Assembly (NCBI GenBank): GCA_947629485.1
Contig: CANRDX010000004.1
Coordinates: forward strand, 1-64,000
Length of the DNA stretch: 64,000 nucleotides
Direction: 5' to 3'
DNA from: an uncultured Clostridia bacterium
GTDB lineage: Bacteria; Bacillota; Clostridia; Christensenellales; Borkfalkiaceae
Below the pieces are notes generated by a model. It was not told the origin of the DNA. It did no database searches and worked only from the letters and a program-made list of their open reading frames with translations. Below are positions 1,670-63,600 of the stretch, piece after piece. Positions within the stretch are counted from its first letter, which is position 1. Each line of letters starts with the position of its first letter. The translations under genes and the position numbers were made by a program.

Positions 1670-1721
1670 ACCTGCCCCCACTTGTGGGGCGGGTGGCTCG
1701 CGCAGCGAGACAGGTGGGGGC
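1670..1721 (-). repeat. C-rich palindromic repeat copy R1 (inverted relative to R2)
   Basis: Revcomp GCCCCCACCTGTCTCGCTGCGCGAGCCACCCGCCCCACAAGTGGGGGCAGGT matches R2 in layout (CCCCCACCTG - hairpin - GCCACCCGCCCC - hairpin - GGGGGCAGGT). Confidence 0.85.
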
Positions 1722-1725
1722 AAAT

Positions 1726-2079
1726 TTACAACCCCAAGCGGTTCCAAATATCTTCGCAAACACCCTTAAAGTTTGAATTTATTTCTTTATCCGAATAGCG
1801 AAGAACTGTGTAGCCGAGTTCTGCAAGAAAGGCGTCGCGAAGCCTGTCTTGCTTTTCGCCGCCCGCTTCATAATGCTGTGCGCCATCCAACTCGACTATG
1901 AGCTTCTTCTCCGCACAACAGAAATCAACGATATAACGGCTGACAACTTTCTGTCTCGTAAATTTTACCGGCAACGTAACCAAAAAGCGATACCATAGTT
2001 TTTTCTCCTCTTTGGTCGCGTTTTTCCGCAACGATTTTGCGTTTTGAACAAGTCTGCCGTTCCTGATTTTGATCGGCAT
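1726..2079 (-). CDS. DUF559 domain (Vsr-like PD-(D/E)xK) endonuclease-like protein
   Basis: MPIKIRNGRLVQNAKSLRKNATKEEKKLWYRFL...FTRQKVVSRYIVDFCCAEKKLIVELDGAQHYE...VLRYSDKEI; hallmark VDF..CxxxKLIVELDGxQH motif. Confidence 0.88.
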   Translation of the reverse strand: MPIKIRNGRLVQNAKSLRKNATKEEKKLWYRFLVTLPVKFTRQKVVSRYIVDFCCAEKKLIVELDGAQHYEAGGEKQDRLRDAFLAELGYTVLRYSDKEINSNFKGVCEDIWNRLGL

Positions 2080-2083
2080 GATC

Positions 2084-2139
2084 AACCCCCACCTGACATG
2101 GCTTCGCCATGCCACCCGCCCCCTTCAACGGGGGCAGGT
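2084..2139 (+). repeat. C-rich palindromic repeat copy R2
   Basis: AACCCCCACCTGACATGGCTTCGCCATGCCACCCGCCCCCTTCAACGGGGGCAGGT, two adjacent hairpins. Confidence 0.85.
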
Positions 2140-4519: not shown

Positions 4520-4627
4520 ACCCCCACCCGTCACGGCTTCGCCGTGCCACCCTCCCCCTCGCAAGCGAAGGGTAGGGCTTCCCCCTTCGTAAGGGAGAAG
4601 CTGTCACCGCAGGTGACTGATGGGGGT
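4520..4627 (+). repeat. C-rich palindromic repeat, compound copy R3
   Basis: ACCCCCACCCGTCACGGCTTCGCCGTGCCACCCTCCCC...GGTAGGGCTTCCCCC...GTGACTGATGGGGGTT. Confidence 0.75.
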
Positions 4628-4720
4628 TCTTGCTGTCCCTTTTAGGGAAAGTACCCGCGTAGCGGGGGAAAGGGTTCTAACCCCTCTGTCACTTCGTGAC
4701 ATCTCCCCTCTCAGGGGCGC

Positions 4721-4800
4721 CCCCCCCCACCTGTCACGGCAAAGCCGCGCCACCCTCCCCCTCATCGAGGGGTAGGGCTTCCCCCCCCCGAGGGAGAAGG
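4721..4800 (+). repeat. C-rich palindromic repeat copy R4
   Basis: CCCCCCCCCACCTGTCACGGCAAAGCCGCGCCACCCTCCCCCTCATCGAGGGGTAGGGCTTCCCCC. Confidence 0.75.
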
Positions 4801-14634: not shown

Positions 14635-14903
14635 CGTCATACTGCCCCGCCCAGAGCTGCCCCCTTTGAAGGGGGCGGCTCCCGCGCAGCGGGTGGTGGG
14701 GGTTGGATTACGAAAATCGTCATACTGCCCCGCCCGCACGTTCTAATCCGTCATACTGCCCCGCGCGCACTATTCTCTACTAAGCGCGGCACGAGCCGAA
14801 GGCGAAGTAGCGAAGTATCACCTTATTATAATGCGGTGATGTTTCGACTTCGGCTTCGCCTCCGCTCAACATGACCTAGTTAGAATGGGCGGGCAACATG
14901 ACG
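14635..14903. repeat. Compound repeat island: three direct CGTCATACTGCCCCGC copies (14635, 14718, 14749) closed by an inverted GGGCGGGCAACATGACG (14887-14903)
   Basis: Direct inspection of the intergenic sequence. Confidence 0.7.
14654..14705 (-). repeat. C-rich palindromic repeat copy R5
   Basis: Revcomp CCAACCCCCACCACCCGCTGCGCGGGAGCCGCCCCCTTCAAAGGGGGC matches R2 layout. Confidence 0.75.
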
Positions 14904-14914
14904 TAATTAAAGAG

Positions 14915-14975
14915 AACCCCCACCTGTCTCGCTACGCTCGCCACCCTCCCCCTTACAAAGGGGTAGGGCTTCCCC
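14915..14975 (+). repeat. C-rich palindromic repeat copy R6
   Basis: AACCCCCACCTGTCTCGCTACGCTCGCCACCCTCCCCCTTACAAAGGGGTAGGGCTTCCCCC. Confidence 0.78.
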
Positions 14976-50161: not shown

Positions 50162-51605
50162 GACGTAAAAAGTACTCCTCGAAATCGAAATTGGGATCGA
50201 CGGTCATGATGCGCTTGATGTTGAGATCGTCGAGCTGCTGCCCCTTCTTCATGAGCACAACGCGGTCGCACATCTTCGCGACCGTGATGAGCGCGTGCGA
50301 CGAGAAAATGATGCAGTTGCCCGCATGCGCATATTCGCGCATGAACACCTGCACCGCGTGCATGGTACGGGGATCAAGCCCCGTCATCGGCTCGTCGAGC
50401 ACCCACAGCTTGGGCATGTGCATGAGGGAACCCATCATGCAGATCTTCTGCCGCATGCCGTGCGAATAGGAGGAAATGAGATTGTTGATCGCGTCTCCGA
50501 GCTGGAACACGCTTTCGAGCTTCTCCACGCGCTCCTTGCGCACCTCGGAGGGAACTTTGTAGATGTCCGCGATAAAGCTCAAATATTGAATGCCCGTCAT
50601 CTTCACGAACGTGGCGTGGTTATCCGTCACGAAGCCCATAGAGAACTTCGCCGCGAGCGGATCCTTCTTGATATCGTGCCCGCAGATCGAGATCTTTCCC
50701 TTCTCGAAGGGGAGCATGCCTTCGAGACATTTCAGCGTGGTGGATTTCCCCGCGCCGTTGTGCCCGAGAAGCCCCACGATCTCGCCCTCGTAACAGGTAA
50801 AGTTGACGTCCGCCACCGCGTAGTCCGCCTTCTTCGAGTATCTTTTATAAAGACCCTCGACGCGCAGAACTTCCGCCTCCGCTTCCGTGTGAAGGGTGTG
50901 CACGCTCATGATCTCTTCCGCGATCTCGGTGCTGATCTCGTCGCCCACTTCCAGACCGTGCTCTTCGAGGATCTCCTCCACCGTCTCTGCGGAAGAAACG
51001 CCGTGCAGCTCGGCGGGCACTTCCTCGGAAACGGCCTCTTCAACAGGTCCCTCGGCGGGTTCCTCTTCGGAAATAGGCTCCTCCGCGACGGACTCTTCAA
51101 TGCGGGTCTGTATATCCGCCGCCGCATAAGTCTCTTCATTCGGCTCTTCTTCGGGAACAGCCTCTTCCGCAACAAGCTCGTCTTCGGGAACGAGTTCTTC
51201 CGCAACAGGCTCTTCGATAGGCTCGTCTTCGGGAACGAGTTCTTCCGCAACAGGCTCTTCGATAGTCTCTTCTGCGGGAACATTTTCTTCCGCGAGAGGC
51301 TCTTCGATAGTCTCTTCTGCGGGAACAGCCTCTTCTGCGAGAGGCTCTTCGATAGGCTCCTCTGCGGAAACGATTTCTTCTGCGAGAGGCTCTTCGATAG
51401 GCTCCTCTGCGGGCTGTTCAGTTGTTCCCTCGGGCGTTTCCTCGGTCGGTTCCTCGGTCGCTTTCGCCAAAGACTTTGCCGCGGGCTTTCTCATGAGCAA
51501 GCGTACCAGAAGAAAATCGACGGCGACCAACCCTGCGGCTACCACCGACAGAACGATCAGCACGGGCAGTTGCCATCCGTTGAGTGCAAGTAATTCAAAG
51601 TTCAC
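50145..51605 (-). CDS. ABC transporter ATP-binding protein with N-terminal TM helix and acidic 15-aa repeat tether; GTG start
   Basis: NGWQLPVLIVLSVVAAGLVAVDFLLV TM; EEPIEEPLAEEx repeats; GLLGHNGAGKSTTLKCLEGML, SYSHGMRQKICMMGSLMHMPKLWVLDEPMTGLD; GGAGG RBS. Confidence 0.9.
   Translation of the reverse strand: MNFELLALNGWQLPVLIVLSVVAAGLVAVDFLLVRLLMRKPAAKSLAKATEEPTEETPEGTTEQPAEEPIEEPLAEEIVSAEEPIEEPLAEEAVPAEETIEEPLAEENVPAEETIEEPVAEELVPEDEPIEEPVAEELVPEDELVAEEAVPEEEPNEETYAAADIQTRIEESVAEEPISEEEPAEGPVEEAVSEEVPAELHGVSSAETVEEILEEHGLEVGDEISTEIAEEIMSVHTLHTEAEAEVLRVEGLYKRYSKKADYAVADVNFTCYEGEIVGLLGHNGAGKSTTLKCLEGMLPFEKGKISICGHDIKKDPLAAKFSMGFVTDNHATFVKMTGIQYLSFIADIYKVPSEVRKERVEKLESVFQLGDAINNLISSYSHGMRQKICMMGSLMHMPKLWVLDEPMTGLDPRTMHAVQVFMREYAHAGNCIIFSSHALITVAKMCDRVVLMKKGQQLDDLNIKRIMTVDPNFDFEEYFLRHEGQD
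51166..51420 (-). repeat. 45-bp tandem repeat array (5-6 copies) inside ABC ATPase gene
   Basis: TCTTCGATAG recurs at 51211, 51256, 51301, 51346, 51391: exact 45-bp period. Confidence 0.92.
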
Positions 51606-54600: not shown

Positions 54601-57600
54601 GCCCAACGTAAGTTCGCTGTCGGAAGTTTCCCAATACCAATCCTCCCCGAGGCCGATATCATTGAGCGTCTTGCCGTACCAATTCACCTGCTCGCCGATC
54701 GTGGGCTTGGAAACGCCTTCGGGCAATTTTTCCAACGTCGCCTTCGCGATGTGGAAGGTGAACACAAGGTCATCCTGCGTGCCGCCGACCCACTCGTAGT
54801 TCGTCTTATCCGAGAGTATGACTGTGAACTGATAGTCGCCTGCGTTTGTCTGCGTAAGAGATGCGCCCTCGATTTTCATCGACGCATCGTCGAAGCCGCT
54901 GAGCGTGTACGTCTGCGCGTTCTTGTTGTAGGTGAAAGAATCGGTATCCTCCGCGGGCTTTGTGAGCTGCTTGCGCTTGATCGTGATCGTGAATTCCTTC
55001 GTGTCGCCTTCGTAGTTGTCGGTGCCCGCGACCGAAAGCGTGACGACGTAGGTATCGGCGTTCTTGATCTCCGTCGCATCATTCGTAACGCTCCCAAAGT
55101 TGGAGGTCGCCTTGCTCCAATCGACGGTATACGGCGTGCCGCGATAGGTCGCGCTGTATGAGTAGTCATTGTCGCCCTTTACAAAGTCGCCGAAGGTGAT
55201 TTGGGAAGCGTCGATGACCGCCTTCGCCTTGTTGATCGTGATCGTGAACTTCACGTCGTCTGCTGTGTCGTAGTTCGCGTTGCCTGCGAGAGAAAGCGTG
55301 ACAGTGTAGGTATTGGCGTCCGTGAAAGAACTTGCGCCCGTGACTACAATGTTTGTCGTAAGGGTGCCGTTGAAGTCGTCAGCAGGCTTCGCCACCGTCC
55401 AATCGACGGTGTACGCCGCGCCCTTGTAGGTTGCGCTATACGTATAATCGCCGTCCTTTTCAAAGTCGCCAAAGTCGATGTCGGAAGTGTTGATTTCCGC
55501 CTTCGCCTTGTTAATCGTCACCGTGTAAGTGTCCTCGAAGTTTCCATCTTTGCCCTCAAACGTGTAGTTCTCAGTCGGTGTGACCTTAACGGTGACGGAA
55601 TACAGCCCCACATTCTTGAATTTTGGCGCTTCCTCTGTGATACCCGAATCCACGGAGTAGCTGATGCTGTACACCACGTTGCTGAACTCGTCGTGCACGT
55701 CGAATTTCACTCCCTCGCCGCCGTGCTCGTTGCCGTCGTACGTCGTGTCGATATTAACGGGCAGGGTGACCGTCACTGACTTCTTTGCGACCGTGAGGGT
55801 GTACGTCGCCGTCGTCTCCTCGTAGTTCGCGCCCGAGACCTTGACCGTGATCGTGTAGCTGTTCGCATTCTTGATCGTCGGGAAGCTGCCGAACTCCGAC
55901 CCCGTGAGGCTGTATTCGACGGTCGCGTCGGAATAGACGTTGTCCTTGACGACCGCGTTGCGCACCGTCTCCTCGGTGACCTGCGTTTCCGTATCCTTGT
56001 CATAGGTGTAGACCGCGGTGTCCGTAACGTTTTCGAGGGTCGGCTTCGCCTTATTGATGACGATCTTATAGCTGCCGTTCGCCGCGTTGTAGTTTGCGGA
56101 TTCGCTGACCGCATACTGCACGGGGTAGCCGCCGTCTTGATAATTCTTGTACTGCGCAACGGTCTCCTCGCCGTTGTAGGTGACGGTGTAGTCGCCCGCT
56201 TGGAGCGCGCTGTCTTCCGCAAGCCCCGAAACGGCGATCGCATTGCCGTGCTCGGTCGCGTCGTAATCAAAGTTCTGCGCGGGCGCGCTCACGGTGTAGT
56301 TCGCTTTGGCGACCGTGAGAGCGACCGTCGTCTCCGCTCCGATGAAGTTCCTGCCGTCGGAAAGTTTCACCGTGATCGTGACGCCATTGCCCTCGGCAAC
56401 GTTGGTGAACTTGAACTCAGTGATGAGCGCGCCGTCCTTCTCGAACGTGATCGCGCCGTAGCCCGTTGCGCCTTCGATGTTGCTCTTCGCCTGCGCCGCA
56501 TCGAGGTTGACGGTCTGCTCTTTCGCGGTGAAGGTGTACGCCGTCGTGATATCCTTGACGTCGAGCTGCGCCTCCGCCTTGCCGATGTTGACGGTGTAGG
56601 TGCCCGTCTTCTCGTTATAGTTGTCGTTTCCGGAGACCGAATAAGTGACCTCGTGCTCGCCCGCGTCGGTGAATTGATAGCCGCCGCCGTAGGTGATTTC
56701 GCCGATGACATCGCCCTCGTGAACGCCTGCCGCCGTGACTACGCCACCCTGCTCCGTGCCGTTGTAGGTGAATTCCTTCACCTTCGGCTCTGTGACAACG
56801 TACTCCGCCTTGTTGATCGTGAGCGTGTAAGTACCGCTCTTATCGTTATAGTTGTCGTTGCCCGAAACGGTATAGGTGACGGTATAACCCGCTTCGTTGG
56901 CGTTTATGAACTGATAGCCGCCGTCGCCGTAGCGCAATGTGAATTGATCGCTGCCCTTGACTTCGACCTGCACGGGGTCGCCCTGCGCCGTGCCGTTGTA
57001 GGTGAATTCCTTCGCCTCCGGCTCGGTGACGATGTACTCCGCTTTGTCGATAGTAATTTTGTAGGTGAGCGAAGCGCCGTCGTAGTTGTTCGTGCCGTCG
57101 ATGGTGAGCGTGACGGTGTAGCCGCCTTCTTGATAGTTCGTGAAGGAGCTTGCGCCCGTGATGTGAATGAGATCTGCCGTAAGGGTGCCGTTGAAGTCGT
57201 CGGTAGGCTTCGCCTTGCTCCATTCGACGGAGTATGGCGTGCCGCGATAGGTCGCGCTGTACGAGGCGCCCTCGCCTTTGAGGTCGCCGAAGGTGATGTC
57301 GGAAGCGTCGATTCCCGCCTTCGCCTTGCCGATCTTCACCGTGTAGGCGCCGTCTTCGATGTCGTTGTAGTTGTCGTTGCCCGTAACGGTGTATTTGACG
57401 GCGTGCTCGCCCGCGGCGGTGAACTGCCCTGCGCCGACGAAGCTGACTTCAAACTCATCCCCTTCGAGCGCAGTCACGAGGCGCTTCAATTCGTCAAGCG
57501 TGCGGCCCTGCGCCGCGCCGTTGTATGTGTAGCCCGTATCATCCTTCACGCCGCTCACGGTGTAGTCCGCTTTGGCGATGTTCCAGGTGAGCTTCCATTC

Positions 57601-60600
57601 GGTCGTGATCTCGTTGTAATTCGCATTATCGTAGGTGAGGGTCGCGACGGCACGGTACTCGCCCGCGGCAGTCCCCTGCGCGTTCTGATAGGCGACTTCA
57701 ATGTCGCCGTCTGCGGGAAGCCCCGTGAGCGCGACGGTGTGCGCGGTCTTATCGTAGGTGAACGACTTCTCCTCCGCCGTGTAGTCCCACTTGACGCCAC
57801 CCATGTCGAGGGTCGCCTTGTCGATGACAAATTTCAGCGTGAGCGTTGCGCTCTCCTCATCGCCGCTCTTGCCCGCCCACTTGTAGTTGGAGGGATCGTT
57901 GAGTGCGAGCACGACGTCGTATTCGCCCGCGTCGGTGCCGCCTTCGTTCTTTTGAACGGTGTAGAGCGCGCCCGCCGCGTCTACGGTCGCCGTCTGCGCG
58001 CCTTTGTTATATGTCTTGTGCGCGATGACGGGCGCGGTGACCGCCGCTTTGCCGACCGTGAGGGTGTACGTCGCAGTCGCCGTCTCGTAGTTGTCGCCCG
58101 AGACCTTTACCGTGATCGTGTAGCTGTTCGCATTCCTGACATTCGGGAAGTTGCCGAACTCCGATCCCGTGAGGCTGTACTCGACGGTCGCGTCGGAATA
58201 GACGTTGCGCTTGACGACCGCGTCGTGCACCTTCTTCTCTTCGATCAGCGTTTCGACCGCATTATCATAGGTGTAGGAAGCGGCGTCCTTGACATTTTCG
58301 AGAACGGGCGTCGCCTTGTTGCCCTTGACGGCAAAGCTCCCCACCTCGTCCTTGCAGTTGGGCGCCGTCACTTTGTAATAGACGGTGTAATCGCCCGCGG
58401 CGGTGAACTTCGGCACGGTATCCTTGTAATTGCCTTGTTCGTCCGTCTTGTATTGAATGTGGATATCCCCCGCATCGACGCCTTCCGCCGTCGCCTTGAC
58501 TTCAAAGGAATGCTCCTCGCTATCATAGGTGAAGGTGCTGTTGGAGGGCTTTTCGATGCGGAATGCCGAATCGTTCAGCATAAGGGTGAACGCATAGGTG
58601 AACTTGAAGTTCGCCGTCACGTCGGCGCCGCCCTCTTTGAGCGTGATTTTGAAGCCGTCTTTCCAGCCGAACACGCCGTTGACGTCGGTTGCCTTGTACT
58701 CCTGCGCGGAAAGACCGTCTGCGCCCGTGAGGACAATGGTGCCCGTGAGGACGAATCGATCGTCGCCGAGCGTGGGAACATACGACCACTCGCGCCTCTT
58801 CGCCCACGGCTGGCTGCCCGAAGCGGAGACCTTGACGGTCTTCGGTTCGACGGTGAAGGAGACGGAATCGCTTCCGTTCAGCTCCTCGCCGTCCGATGTG
58901 ACGCGGTAGTCGGGATTTACATTGTAGGAGACGGTCACGGTGTACTTCCCGCAAGGGAGATATTTATCGCCGCCCGTATAAGGCGCGCTATCCTTGTTGA
59001 TGGACGTCGTGAATTTCAGCTCGTCGTTGTAGATCGAGCCTGCCGTCTTGAACCAAGCGTCCGCGGTGTCGTCGCCGTAGGTGTTCCAACCTTTTTTGAG
59101 GGTGAGCGTGACTTCGGACGGGGAAACGGTGAAGGAGACTGCCTCCTTGCTCTCCGTTCCATAGACATAGGAGATGATGTAGTCGTCGGAAGCGTAGCCG
59201 CTCGCGGTGAACGTGTAGCTGTCGGCACGGAGCACGCCCTTCACGTTCGCGCTCGGATAGCGGACGCCTTTGAGGGCATAGTTGAGGGTCCCAAGCCCTT
59301 CGCCGGTATCCCCTTCCACAAGCCCGCTCACCGTGCTCGAAAGGGCGAGCGTGCGGCTTCCGTCATAGGTGAAGTCTGCAAAGTCGTGCGTATCGGTTAC
59401 GGAGACGGTGATCTTCTTGGGCGAGACCTTGAACGTCGCGGTCTCGTACGTGATCGCATAGTCGTCCGACAGATAGCCCGAAAGCGTGAGGGTGTGTTCG
59501 CCCGCGCGGAGGAAGCCCTCGCTGTTCTTCGCGTCGGAATATGCGTAGGTAAGCTCGCCCGCAAGGTTGGAATAGCTCTCGGTGCGAATAAAGCCGTTGT
59601 AGGAGACGTGCGGGGCGGGCGTCTCGCCGTAGGTGATGTCCGCGACCGTCGCGGAGACGGTGAGCGCCTTTTTATTCACGGTGAAGGTATCGCTCACATA
59701 GTGGATATCGTAGTTCGTCGCGGTGAAGCCGCCGACCTCGACGGTGTACTTGCCCGCATGGAGCAGCCCCTCCTTCTTCACGCCGCCGAGCAAATAGGTA
59801 TAGGAGGCGGAGCCGCTGAGAACGCGCTCGTTCTCCTCATAGGCGAACGGGCTAAAAGAGATCGTGGGCTTCGGCGCATCTCCGTAGGTGATGTCGCCCG
59901 CCGTAACGGTGACGGTGAGGGGGGCTTTCGTGATGCGGAAAGCCGTCTTTTCGGCGGAAGATACGGCGTAGTTATCCGCCGTGTAGCCCTCCGTCGCACC
60001 GACATAGTACGCTCCGAAGGGGAATTGACGGATACTCGTGATCTGTTGATCGGCATTGTAATAGGTGAACTGCTCCTTCGGGCGCGCGGTGAATACCGAT
60101 TCGCCCTCGCCGCTCACAAATCCGTTGAAAGTCAGTTTGGGTTGGGGCACGGTGCCGTAGACGTAGGAATCCGTCACGCCCTCTATGCCGACGGTAAGCC
60201 CCTTCTTGGCGATCGCGAAATCTGCCGACTGCACGGTGAGGGTGTAGTTGGTATTTTCCCGATAGGTGAGCGTGACCGTATAATTCCCCGCCTGATAGTA
60301 GGTGCGTTCCGAAGGAACGTAGGCGCTCTTGTTGCCGTTTGCGGTGCGGGAGAAGGCGTAGGAATAGGCGAAGCCGAAGCCTGTGAGATCGCGGCTGAGG
60401 ATCTGCGGCATGGTATAGCCGAAGCTCGGCGTATCGCCGTAGGTGCCGCCCGTCGCGCTCACGGTGACGGTCGCCCTGCGCTTTGCGATGTTGAATGTGC
60501 CGTTTTCATAATGAATGTCGTAGTTCGGCGAGGCGTAGCCCTCGACGGACACGGTGTAGCTGCCCGCGTCGAAGTATTCTTCGGCGGAGTACTCTTTCCC

Positions 60601-63600
60601 ATCGCGCAGATAGCTGTACGCGGGAGCGCCGCCGAGCACGTCCTCGTTCTCCCCGGGCACAAAGCCGTCATATTTAAGTGCGGGCGCGGGAAGCGCTTTA
60701 TCGCCATAGGTGAAGCCTTCCGCCGTCACGGTGACGGTGAGCTTCTTTTGCGCCACGGTGAAGGAAGCGTCTTGGACGTCGATCGTATAGTTCGCGTTTT
60801 CCAGCCCTTCGAGCGTAGCGGTGTAGCTGCCCGCTTCAAAGTACTTCTTCACGGCGTAATGCTCCGAAGCGCCGTCCTTGAAGTAGCAGATCGCGCTTGC
60901 CTTCGCGCCGAACAGCGAAGTTTCGTTCTCGTCGTAGGCAAATGCGCCGAATTGAACGCCGACATGGGGCGTATCGCCGTAGGTGTAGGTACTGCCGTCG
61001 GTGAGGGTGACTGTGAGCGCCTTTTTCTCCACGGTGAAGGTCACGCCCTCTTGATAGGTGAGCGTGTAGTCGCCGAGCGCGGGGATCCCCTTGACGGAGA
61101 GCGCATAGCTGCCCGCGATCATCTTGGCGTCGCCGTCCAACTCGCTCTGCGTGTAGGTCTGCGTGCCGCGATATTCGATGTAAGCCTCCCCTGCGAGCCG
61201 CTCTTCGCCCGCAAGGAAGCCGTCGTAGCCCTCGTGCGCGTAGACGGGCGAGGCATGCGGCTTTTCGCCGTAGACGAGGGAAGACGCGTCGAGGGAAATG
61301 CCGACATAGAGCGTGCGGGGACGGACGGTGAAGTCCGCGCGGACGACGGTCACCGCATAGTTGGCGGGATCGGCGGTCGTCGTGGCATAGTAATCGCCCG
61401 TGTGGAAGTCCGCCGCCGCTTCGCCGCTCATCTTATAATAAGAAACGGTGGGAAGCGCGTTGCCGAATACCGTGCGCGCGTTTTCGCTTGCGATAAATCC
61501 GTTGTATTCCACGCCGTTGTAATAGCCCGAAGCGGCGCTCGTTTTAGGCGTCTCGCCGTAGAGCAGATCGTCATCGATGAGGTGCACAGTGAGCGTGAGC
61601 GCCTTCTTTTCGACCTCGAACGAGGTCTTGGGGAAGGAGAATTCGTAGTTGTCCGCAGTATAGCCTGCGACTTCCACGGTGTATCGGTCTGCCGCGAAGG
61701 GCGAGACGTTATATTCCGCGTCAGGCGCGGAAACGGTACGATAAACGAAGCGCCGCACGCCCTTCAAAAGCCCGCTCGTGTGTTCGTTTTCCTCGAATTC
61801 AAACGCGTCCTCGAACACGGCGGAGGGCGAGACGGGATCGCCGTAGATATAGCTCTCGTTCACGGAGACGCTGACTGCGAGCGCTTTTTTCGTGATCTCG
61901 AAGCGCGTTCCCGTCACGGTGAGCGGTTCGTAGTTGTCGCTCCCCTGCTCGGTGAACACGGCGTCTACCGTATAATTGCCGACAACGAAGCGGCTTGCGT
62001 CGGCGTATGCGCCGCTTCCTTCGCGCGTAAACGACCACGTGGGCGTAAACTTCGCCTCATCCTCTTCGAGCACGTTGTCGAAGGTGTAGCTCGGAGCGGG
62101 ATCCACGCCGTACACCCCGCCCGTTGCGGAGAGCGCGGCGCTCGCCTGCCTCTTTGCGACCGTGAAAGCCGCCTCTTCGGGAAGGTGCACGGTGTAATTT
62201 TGGGAAGCGTAACCCTGCAAGCGCACCCTGTGCGCGCCCGCGGAGATGATCGCGCCCTCGGCGATGGGGTTCGCGCGCACATCGTCGAGCCGGAAGTTGT
62301 GCTCGCCGAGCGAAGCGGCGGAATCCTCATACACAAAGCCGTTATGGAAATCAATTTCGGGGGCAAAGCCCGTGCCGTAGACGTAGTCATCCACGGAGAG
62401 CGAAATATGCAGATCGCGCGGCTTGACGGTAAAGCTCTTGCGCTCGATGGAAGGCGCCTTATAATTCTTATTTTCGGCGAGCGCGGGCGCGATGGTATAT
62501 CCGCCCACGACGAAATCTTTCTGCACTGTGACGGCGCTCTCTTCGGCGTCGAGATATTGCGATACCGTGACAACGCCTGCGGTCTCAGACGTCTCGCCGT
62601 TTTTGAAGCCGCTGTACACGACCTCAACGGTGGGAACTTCGTCGCCGTACACCGAATCTGCGGCGGAGATCGCGACCTCCGCGGTCAAAGTCGCCTTATC
62701 GAGGAGGAAATCCCCCGTGACGTCCTCTTCCTGCGTGAGGATATAGCTCCCGTCCGCATTGCTGTATTTTGCGGAAATATGGACGGCGAAGGCGTAATCG
62801 CCCGCATCCCCCAGAGCATATCTGCTCTCGGTATTTTCGACGCTCTCTCCGTTGACCGTCCAATCGTACCGATAGACAAGCCCCGCCGCCGTACGCAGAC
62901 CCGCGAGCCACACGCTGTCGTCGGCGTCGCCGTACACCATGTCGCCCTCTGTCTGCAAGACCGCGGTGCCGAAATCCAGCTCATGGCGGGTGTAGACGTG
63001 CACGTCGTGCGCGGGCATTTCCGTAAGTTCGATCGGCTCGCTGCATGCTTCGTCGGCATACCATGTTCCCTGCCACACAAAGGCGCGCGCGACCTCGGGG
63101 CCTTGCGTAAAGTCGAGTTCCCCTTCAAATTCGATATCCAACACGTCCTCTGTGCCGAGATAGTGGCGGTGCAGCTTATAGATATTCTTCTCGTACTCCG
63201 CGGTGATCGTTCTGTTCCCGCGGATATTGGTGAGATTCTTGTCCCAACCCACGAACGTATGCCCGACGCGCCCGTAGATATCGAAATCCTCGCTGAGGCT
63301 GGGGTCCGCGGCGTCGCAGCCGTATTTGACCTCCTGTTGGCTGCTCCACAGCTCGCCGTCGACATAATACTTGAACACGACTTTATACGTCCGCTCGTTG
63401 CGGTCGTCGGGAGACACGGCTTCCTGCCCGAACACGGCGTAGAACGTCTCGTCGGTATAGACGCTGTATTTCCCGCTCAGCGTTTCCGTATCTCCCTCGG
63501 TGCCGCTCCAACCGAGGAATGTATAAGTATATTCGTCGTCATCCTCCTTCACGGGATCTCCCTGCTCAAATTCGAGCGCGTCGAAATCCAGAGTTCCGCC

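Follow-up and report, generated by a model that had tools for sequence, protein, structure and literature searches.

A nuclease gene between inverted palindromic repeats

The window, a stretch of 64,000 nucleotides taken from a contig of an uncultured Clostridia bacterium (CANRDX010000004.1, assembly GCA_947629485.1), carries three genes of interest on its minus strand. These are hemW (radical SAM, 529-1638), a 117-codon gene encoding a DUF559/EDxHD-type nuclease (1726-2079), and an ogt-type O6-alkylguanine DNA methyltransferase gene (2169-2486), hemW and ogt being the right and left neighbours of the insertion site, respectively. In a profile search, the nuclease gene matched PF04480 at E 1.6e-33 (115 bits vs a cut-off of 20.6). 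It is enclosed by two copies of a palindromic repeat. The first, R1 (1670-1721, plus strand), has its hairpin side ACCTGCCCCC outermost and its G-rich tail CAGGTGGGGG (1711-1720) toward the DUF559 gene, and 4 nt separate its end (1721) from the stop codon. The second, R2 (2086-2139, minus strand), is an inverted copy of R1 and reads, in the direction of the gene, ACCTGCCCCC-loop-GGGGGCGGGTGGC-second hairpin-CAGGTGGGGG, followed by TTGATC and the ATG. Past the stop codon, R1 is the inverted counterpart of R2, with both G-rich tails facing the gene and both C/G hairpins outermost. The arm pairs 1686-1697/2111-2122 and 1669-1679/2130-2140 are 100% complementary and form the terminal inverted repeats of an R1-DUF559-R2 cassette of ~470 bp. 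An earlier sequence-only reading of this DNA had placed the gene between inverted repeats, and its coordinates held. It had also put the tail of the repeat where the Shine-Dalgarno sequence of the gene should be, and we found that the GGTGGGGG tail of R2 (CCCCCACC, 2086-2093) indeed occupies the position of the ribosome-binding site, with 6 nt between its end and the DUF559 ATG. The hairpin half is partly repeated at 2161-2180 (CGCCCCCTTCAATGGGGGCA, no strand assigned), and the ogt stop codon falls within this partial copy.

Related repeats without a gene, which the same reading had pointed out elsewhere in the window, were present at 4520-4559, 4724-4776, 14654-14705 and 14915-14963. The first belongs to a group of gene-less copies of the repeat class at 4520-4627 (no strand assigned), of which 4520-4559 aligns with R2 in minus orientation. 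The second, a minus-strand match to the R2 class, spans 4724-4780. The last two, on the plus strand (14654-14705, left arm) and on the minus strand (14915-14963, right arm), form a gene-less inward-facing pair with 209 nt between the arms. At the scale of the window's genome (G000, 1.55 Mb, 98.4% complete), ~50 matches to R2 were detected, the best other copy reaching 93% over 58 nt, and this recurrence is far beyond chance. A single DUF559 gene was found in this genome by profile search.

Other repeats were seen in the window. Between two R2-class copies, positions 4628-4720 hold a repeat of a different type (GCTGTCCCTTTTAGGGAAAGTACCCGCGTAGCGGGGGAAAGGGTTC...), which by eye resembles the repeat upstream of a DUF559 subfamily (L042/L051) that is absent from the window's genome; these repeats are possibly orphans of a lost nuclease. 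Tandem 45-bp units lie at 51132-51458, and the long diverged internal repeats at ~54900-62000 look like a large repetitive protein gene.

Predicted relatives of the nuclease

When 82 relatives of the nuclease were aligned, R18, E25, W29, R42, Q43, D52, F53, E63, G66 and D78 were found to be invariant, and D65 and H69 were present in more than 90% of the sequences. An AlphaFold model of the window nuclease (pLDDT 88) was submitted to Foldseek, which ranked PDB 3hrl (a DUF559 protein) first, followed by the catalytic domain of I-Bth0305I (3r3p) and then Vsr; the profile search gave the same ranking for the top two. I-Bth0305I matched the window nuclease with a profile E of 9.4e-7 and a Foldseek E of 2.5e-4 (TM 0.77). 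By profile and by predicted structure, I-Bth0305I, a homing endonuclease, thus comes out as the best match among characterised relatives, with Vsr behind it. The label "Vsr-like", initially given to the gene, needs correction: the folds are related, but the protein is closer to I-Bth0305I by both profile and structure match. A DUF559 gene has already been filed under the EDxHD homing family in a genome paper (PMC9403480). I-Bth0305I is bound as a dimer to a target of nearly 60 bp (review, PMC3943268), a length close to that of one repeat unit here.

DUF559 genes are associated with palindromes in several phyla

Flanks of DUF559 genes were collected from the same genus, from relatives found by protein similarity, from Alphaproteobacteria, from Chloroflexota and from Pseudomonadota at large. 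A common layout recurred upstream of these genes, with a C/G stem-loop, a G-rich tail and a start codon usually 2-8 nt past the tail. Within the 100 nt upstream, 66 of the 97 unique standalone DUF559 genes had a GC-rich stem of 6 bp or more vs 40 of 436 controls, and the tail motif was present upstream of 27/97 vs 2/436; about a third of the DUF559 genes had no clear upstream stem. Stricter controls were then defined as genes whose start is intergenic. Against these, stem and G-runs together remained in excess in the window's Clostridia genus (23/43 DUF559 genes vs 6/181 controls), in Pseudomonadota (18/51 vs 7/190) and in Chloroflexota (7/13 vs 3/187). The p-values for this excess are too strong because the genes share kinship, but the effect recurs independently in all three groups. 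The enrichment of DUF559 genes beside such repeats, which the sequence-only reading had set as a test, extends to several phyla. Among the 49 DUF559 relatives scored on viral contigs, stem and G-runs were found in the closer relatives only and in none of the distant ones; at least some of the closer ones may be host DNA. YcjD relatives occurred in only 43 plasmid and 3 phage records. In the titles, abstracts and passages of the DUF559 literature that were accessible, we found no link to dispersed palindromes; subscription papers were mostly not covered, and an earlier report is not excluded.

Dispersed copies of the flanks showed no significant excess in samples of 40 kb per genome (29% vs 22%, p 0.41). 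Since such samples were too small and noisy, whole-genome counts were used instead. Permuted pairs of upstream and downstream flanks separated poorly, because repeats within one genus look alike.

The type of repeat was found to follow the nuclease subfamily. In the window's genus, the more alike two nucleases were, the more alike were their upstream repeats (Mantel r 0.57, permutation p 0.0005, after exclusion of pairs more than 85% identical). Where a genome had several DUF559 genes, the flank mostly resembled that of the closest homologue from a different genome more than that of a paralogue beside it (13 of 16 copies). When R2 was used as a query in 61 genomes, 14 contained at least 5 copies, namely 6/6 genomes with a cassette at the hemW site vs 8/55 others (hand-computed Fisher p ~5e-5). 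As these 8 of the 14 repeat-rich relatives have no hemW-site cassette, copies persist or spread without that gene in cis.

Many of the flanking repeats belong to the BoxC/PIT/TM_ECO class

BoxC (triplex motif) repeats have been known since the 1990s. BoxC, PIT and TM_ECO are intrastrand-triplex repeats with thousands of occurrences in hundreds of bacterial genomes, and they have been tied to E. coli genome instability (Holder et al. 2015, PMC4666352). These authors state that they never found a mobility function near them, the E. coli copies included; their paper did not connect the class with a nuclease and reports neither promoter nor terminator activity for it (PMC4666352).

We used CCCTCNCCC N3-6 GGGNGAGGG N3 GGGNGAGGG as the strict TM_ECO motif. 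With up to 5 substitutions, it was found upstream of and oriented toward 25 of 121 DUF559 genes, several matches being exact, vs 0 of 436 controls. The exact motif is present in flanks of both Pseudomonadota and Chloroflexota relatives. Exact pairs with their tails inward surround DUF559 in G310, G238 (two loci) and G345, at 8-48 nt from the HMM match, and terminal inverted repeats are also found in the cassettes of these three genomes. Gene-less inward TM_ECO pairs, with spacers from ~18 nt, occur in the same genomes as bracketed DUF559 genes; in G238, they correspond to the cassette minus its gene, with a spacer of 18-20 nt. Of 20 close TM_ECO pairs whose orientation was read, 13 were inward and 7 outward. 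At one locus (L444, G265:C4:352938-353417), a broken DUF559 remnant with an in-frame TGA has an exact TM_ECO on either side, as expected of a decayed cassette.

The association was also detected at the level of whole genomes. Among 199 Pseudomonadota genomes scored for exact TM_ECO, DUF559 was present in 32 of the 42 TM-positive genomes, as against 30 of the 157 TM-negative ones (odds ratio 13.5, p 9e-12), with significance in small, medium and large genomes, and 847 of the 937 TM_ECO copies sit in DUF559-bearing genomes. R1 and R2 of the window fail the strict motif because a second hairpin stands between the stem and the third G-strand, the second loop being a hairpin of ~19 nt. A compact form of the repeat is found in other DUF559 subfamilies of the window's genus (L038, L046).

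E. coli K-12 contains both a DUF559 gene, ycjD, and 23 TM_ECO copies; of 5,426 complete E. coli genomes, 3,366 carry ycjD. The gene is not bracketed, the one nearby TM_ECO being located on the 3' side only, 168 nt past the stop codon. In the ycjD-minus strains examined, a TetR/RND/MFS efflux operon (L332 1882-9374 in E. coli ATCC 25922) replaces ycjD and its TM_ECO between fabI and sapF, so that fabI-ycjD-sapF offers no clean empty site in these strains.

Presence and absence of the cassette between ogt and hemW

The lepA-ogt-hemW order is conserved in the window's genus. In most relatives without the cassette, ogt ends 0-60 bp from hemW with nothing in between, and nine species of the genus carry the cassette at this site. 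On a tree built from lepA, ogt and hemW, this distribution needs 8 presence/absence changes, and three pairs of sister species are filled and empty, respectively (L062b45/G009, L064b9/G059 and G020/G048). With empty sites common and sister species that differ, the locus is not vertically fixed; fixation would have refuted the mobile cassette suggested by the sequence-only reading. L062 carries its cassette (CTGCCCCC...GGGGCAGGT) after the ogt stop codon and before a hemW ribosome-binding site that is also present in G009. In G031, a gene-less hairpin is found where its relative G052 has a cassette.

We compared DNA identities of the nuclease gene and of its neighbours. Between L064b9 and G007, identity was 87.2% for DUF559 vs 78.0% for ogt, 72.8% for hemW and 82.6% for lepA; between L062b45 and G020, it was 85.8% for DUF559 vs 68.7% for hemW. 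In the close pair G007/G024, used as a yardstick, the three genes were alike (DUF559 90.7% vs 92.9% and 91.0% for the neighbours). Since the nuclease DNA is well above the neighbour genes in two species pairs, descent with losses does not explain every case. Most likely, as far as such identities can tell, the nuclease gene laterally re-entered the same site between ogt and hemW, the act itself being unobserved. For the window's own cassette, the comparison with G007 gave no sign of recent transfer (76% for DUF559 and 71-73% for hemW and ogt), and without a nuclease-specific excess of similarity, its arrival may be old.

A related cassette is present twice in one MAG, whose contigs L084 and L085 have 488 bp in common at 98.8%. 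The homology sets in with the upstream repeat's hairpin and stops within the downstream repeat, in a single metagenome assembly. No cleavage site was found, and no target-site duplication either, in filled/empty pairs of which even the closest (L062b45/G009) is too diverged for a verdict on duplication. The mobility first inferred for the cassette is thus supported by probable lateral re-entry at one site and by a repeat-bounded intragenomic duplicate, but enzymatic action on the repeats is still an inference.

Tandem 51-bp repeat units were observed directly upstream of the DUF559 start in G041 (5 copies; L192 1-256) and in G007 (3 copies; L183 ~765-950), and in both the amplification affects one side of the cassette only. 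In G033, DUF559 occurs twice in the lepA-ogt interval, as part of a direct tandem duplication of ~900 bp (L184 1063-3082) with internal units of ~100 bp.

Discussion

On balance, we lean toward the view that R1-DUF559-R2 is a selfish homing-type cassette with the palindromes as its ends, the gene-less inverted pairs being miniature derivatives or targets. What we observed is the association of gene and repeat across phyla, the tracking of repeats by nuclease subfamily, filled and empty states of one site, a similarity specific to the nuclease gene, a repeat-bounded duplication and gene-less inverted pairs that share the geometry of the cassette. The proposed mechanism is as follows. The nuclease would recognise the palindrome, perhaps in a hairpin or triplex form, and would cut unoccupied repeat sites or the DNA close to them; repair templated by a copy that has the cassette would then write it into the break. 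The repeats may serve as recognition site, as homology for copying and, via their tail, as ribosome-binding site, all of these roles being inferred, and the gene-less inverted pairs would be miniature forms derived from the cassette as well as possible targets. Neither cleavage nor target duplication nor copying has been demonstrated for the cassette, and recognition and cutting of the repeat are inferred. A broader proposal is that triplex-forming palindromes (BoxC/PIT/TM and relatives) make up a cross-phylum superfamily whose dedicated partner, missing so far, is DUF559, a nuclease of homing-endonuclease type that perhaps reads the folded hairpin or triplex and spreads cassette and gene-less pairs in a REP-like manner; we consider it a serious possibility but stop short of calling it probable. 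The partnership of endonuclease and palindrome, put forward by the sequence-only reading, is supported by the cross-phylum enrichment and by the non-fixed locus. Its analogy with RAYT/REP holds as a functional likeness, but there is no HUH transposase and no GTAG or CGTC tag.

The main rival to homing is transposition proper, whether cut-and-paste or replicative, in which DUF559 would be a minimal transposase that moves its terminal inverted repeats to new sites, the gene-less pairs being MITEs. This would account for the gene lying between inverted ends, for the gene-less miniature pairs that accompany such cassettes within a genome, for the variety of loci at which cassettes are found and for the two-site duplicate (L084/L085). 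However, no target-site duplication was seen, the fold is that of homing endonucleases and Vsr, without a transposase domain, and homing typically produces what is inferred here, re-entry of unrelated species at one and the same ogt-hemW site; we regard transposition as unlikely, though not negligible. It could also be that the repeats amplify or recombine alone and that DUF559 was trapped between them as a passenger, possibly using the repeat as a ribosome-binding site or terminator. The tandem 51-bp arrays adjoining the gene in G041 and G007 and the persistence of repeats without the gene point in this direction. Such trapping gives no reason, however, for one nuclease family to be found in several phyla with a gene-facing tail. 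Moreover, the repeat type tracks the nuclease subfamily even among paralogues of the same genome, DUF559 predicts exact TM_ECO at the genome level, and promoter or terminator activity is reported to be absent for the repeat class (PMC4666352). A passenger gene explains the neighbourhood, not the specificity, the polarity or the subfamily matching, and seems improbable to us.

Fold similarity to Vsr raises another option, namely Vsr-type repair of T:G mismatches at methylated sites, with the repeats being incidental. Such repair has been proposed for Caulobacter VsrA, which bears a DUF559 domain (PMC12907096). Contrarily, no match to a C5-cytosine methylase (PF00145) was found in the window's genome (98.4% complete), the repeat association would be left unexplained, and, once DUF559 proteins are set aside, a homing endonuclease gives the best match in structure as well as profile, which leaves very little room for this explanation. 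As for a RAYT/Y1 transposase mobilising the repeats as in REP systems, with DUF559 nearby by chance, the palindromes do have a general resemblance to REPs, but no Y1 (HUH) transposase gene (PF01797; RAYT) was matched in this 98.4% complete genome, the CGTC-REP patterns searched for are missing from DUF559 flanks bar one degenerate match, and the repeat has no GTAG tag; we give this idea hardly any credence. The absence of both a C5 methylase and a Y1 transposase is evidence against Vsr-type repair and RAYT mobilisation in the window's organism, and as candidates, Vsr/VSP repair and RAYT were each rejected on this ground. A CGTC-tagged REP partner (PMC3733652) was also tried and rejected, CGTCAT...ATCCA and CGTCATNCC[CG] being absent from ~150 DUF559 flank pairs except for a degenerate occurrence in L150.

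Returning to the homing-type cassette, a nuclease that sits inside inverted pairs of BoxC-class repeats, and whose presence in a genome predicts those repeats, opens the origin of the class to direct tests, E. coli K-12 included. It also offers a concrete role for a large protein family whose label is still that of a domain of unknown function. The DUF559 nuclease is a good, testable candidate for the spreader of BoxC/TM repeats.

Several known systems resemble the cassette in part. Like MITEs and their autonomous insertion sequence, it has inverted ends, a gene-bearing autonomous copy and short gene-less copies, but it is far smaller (~0.4-0.5 kb), lacks a transposase fold, and target-site duplication has not been shown for it. 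Vsr and Caulobacter VsrA have a related fold, VsrA with a DUF559 domain, whereas the window's genome has no C5 methylase and the structural match to Vsr is weaker than that to I-Bth0305I. In RAYT/REP systems (REPtrons) and REPINs, as here, one nuclease or transposase gene is flanked by a dispersed family of palindromes, inverted dimers are common and some genomes carry the repeat without the cassette (8 here lack it at the hemW site), as with REPs and RAYTs; the differences are an EDxHD/PD-(D/E)XK nuclease instead of an HUH tyrosine transposase and another repeat, without the GTAG tag. The EDxHD homing endonucleases, represented by I-Bth0305I (3r3p), share with the window nuclease the fold, the profile match, the active-site layout and, most likely, lateral re-entry at one site. 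Unlike I-Bth0305I, the window nuclease is encoded by a free-standing gene between inverted palindromes, not in an intron or intein, and is without the long DNA-binding extension described for that enzyme. Finally, the window's R1 and R2 differ from BoxC/PIT/TM_ECO repeats by the second hairpin before the third G-strand, while many of the DUF559-flanking repeats of Pseudomonadota and Chloroflexota match this class, several of them exactly, and the E. coli copies are also arranged in inverted pairs, mostly with their tails inward.
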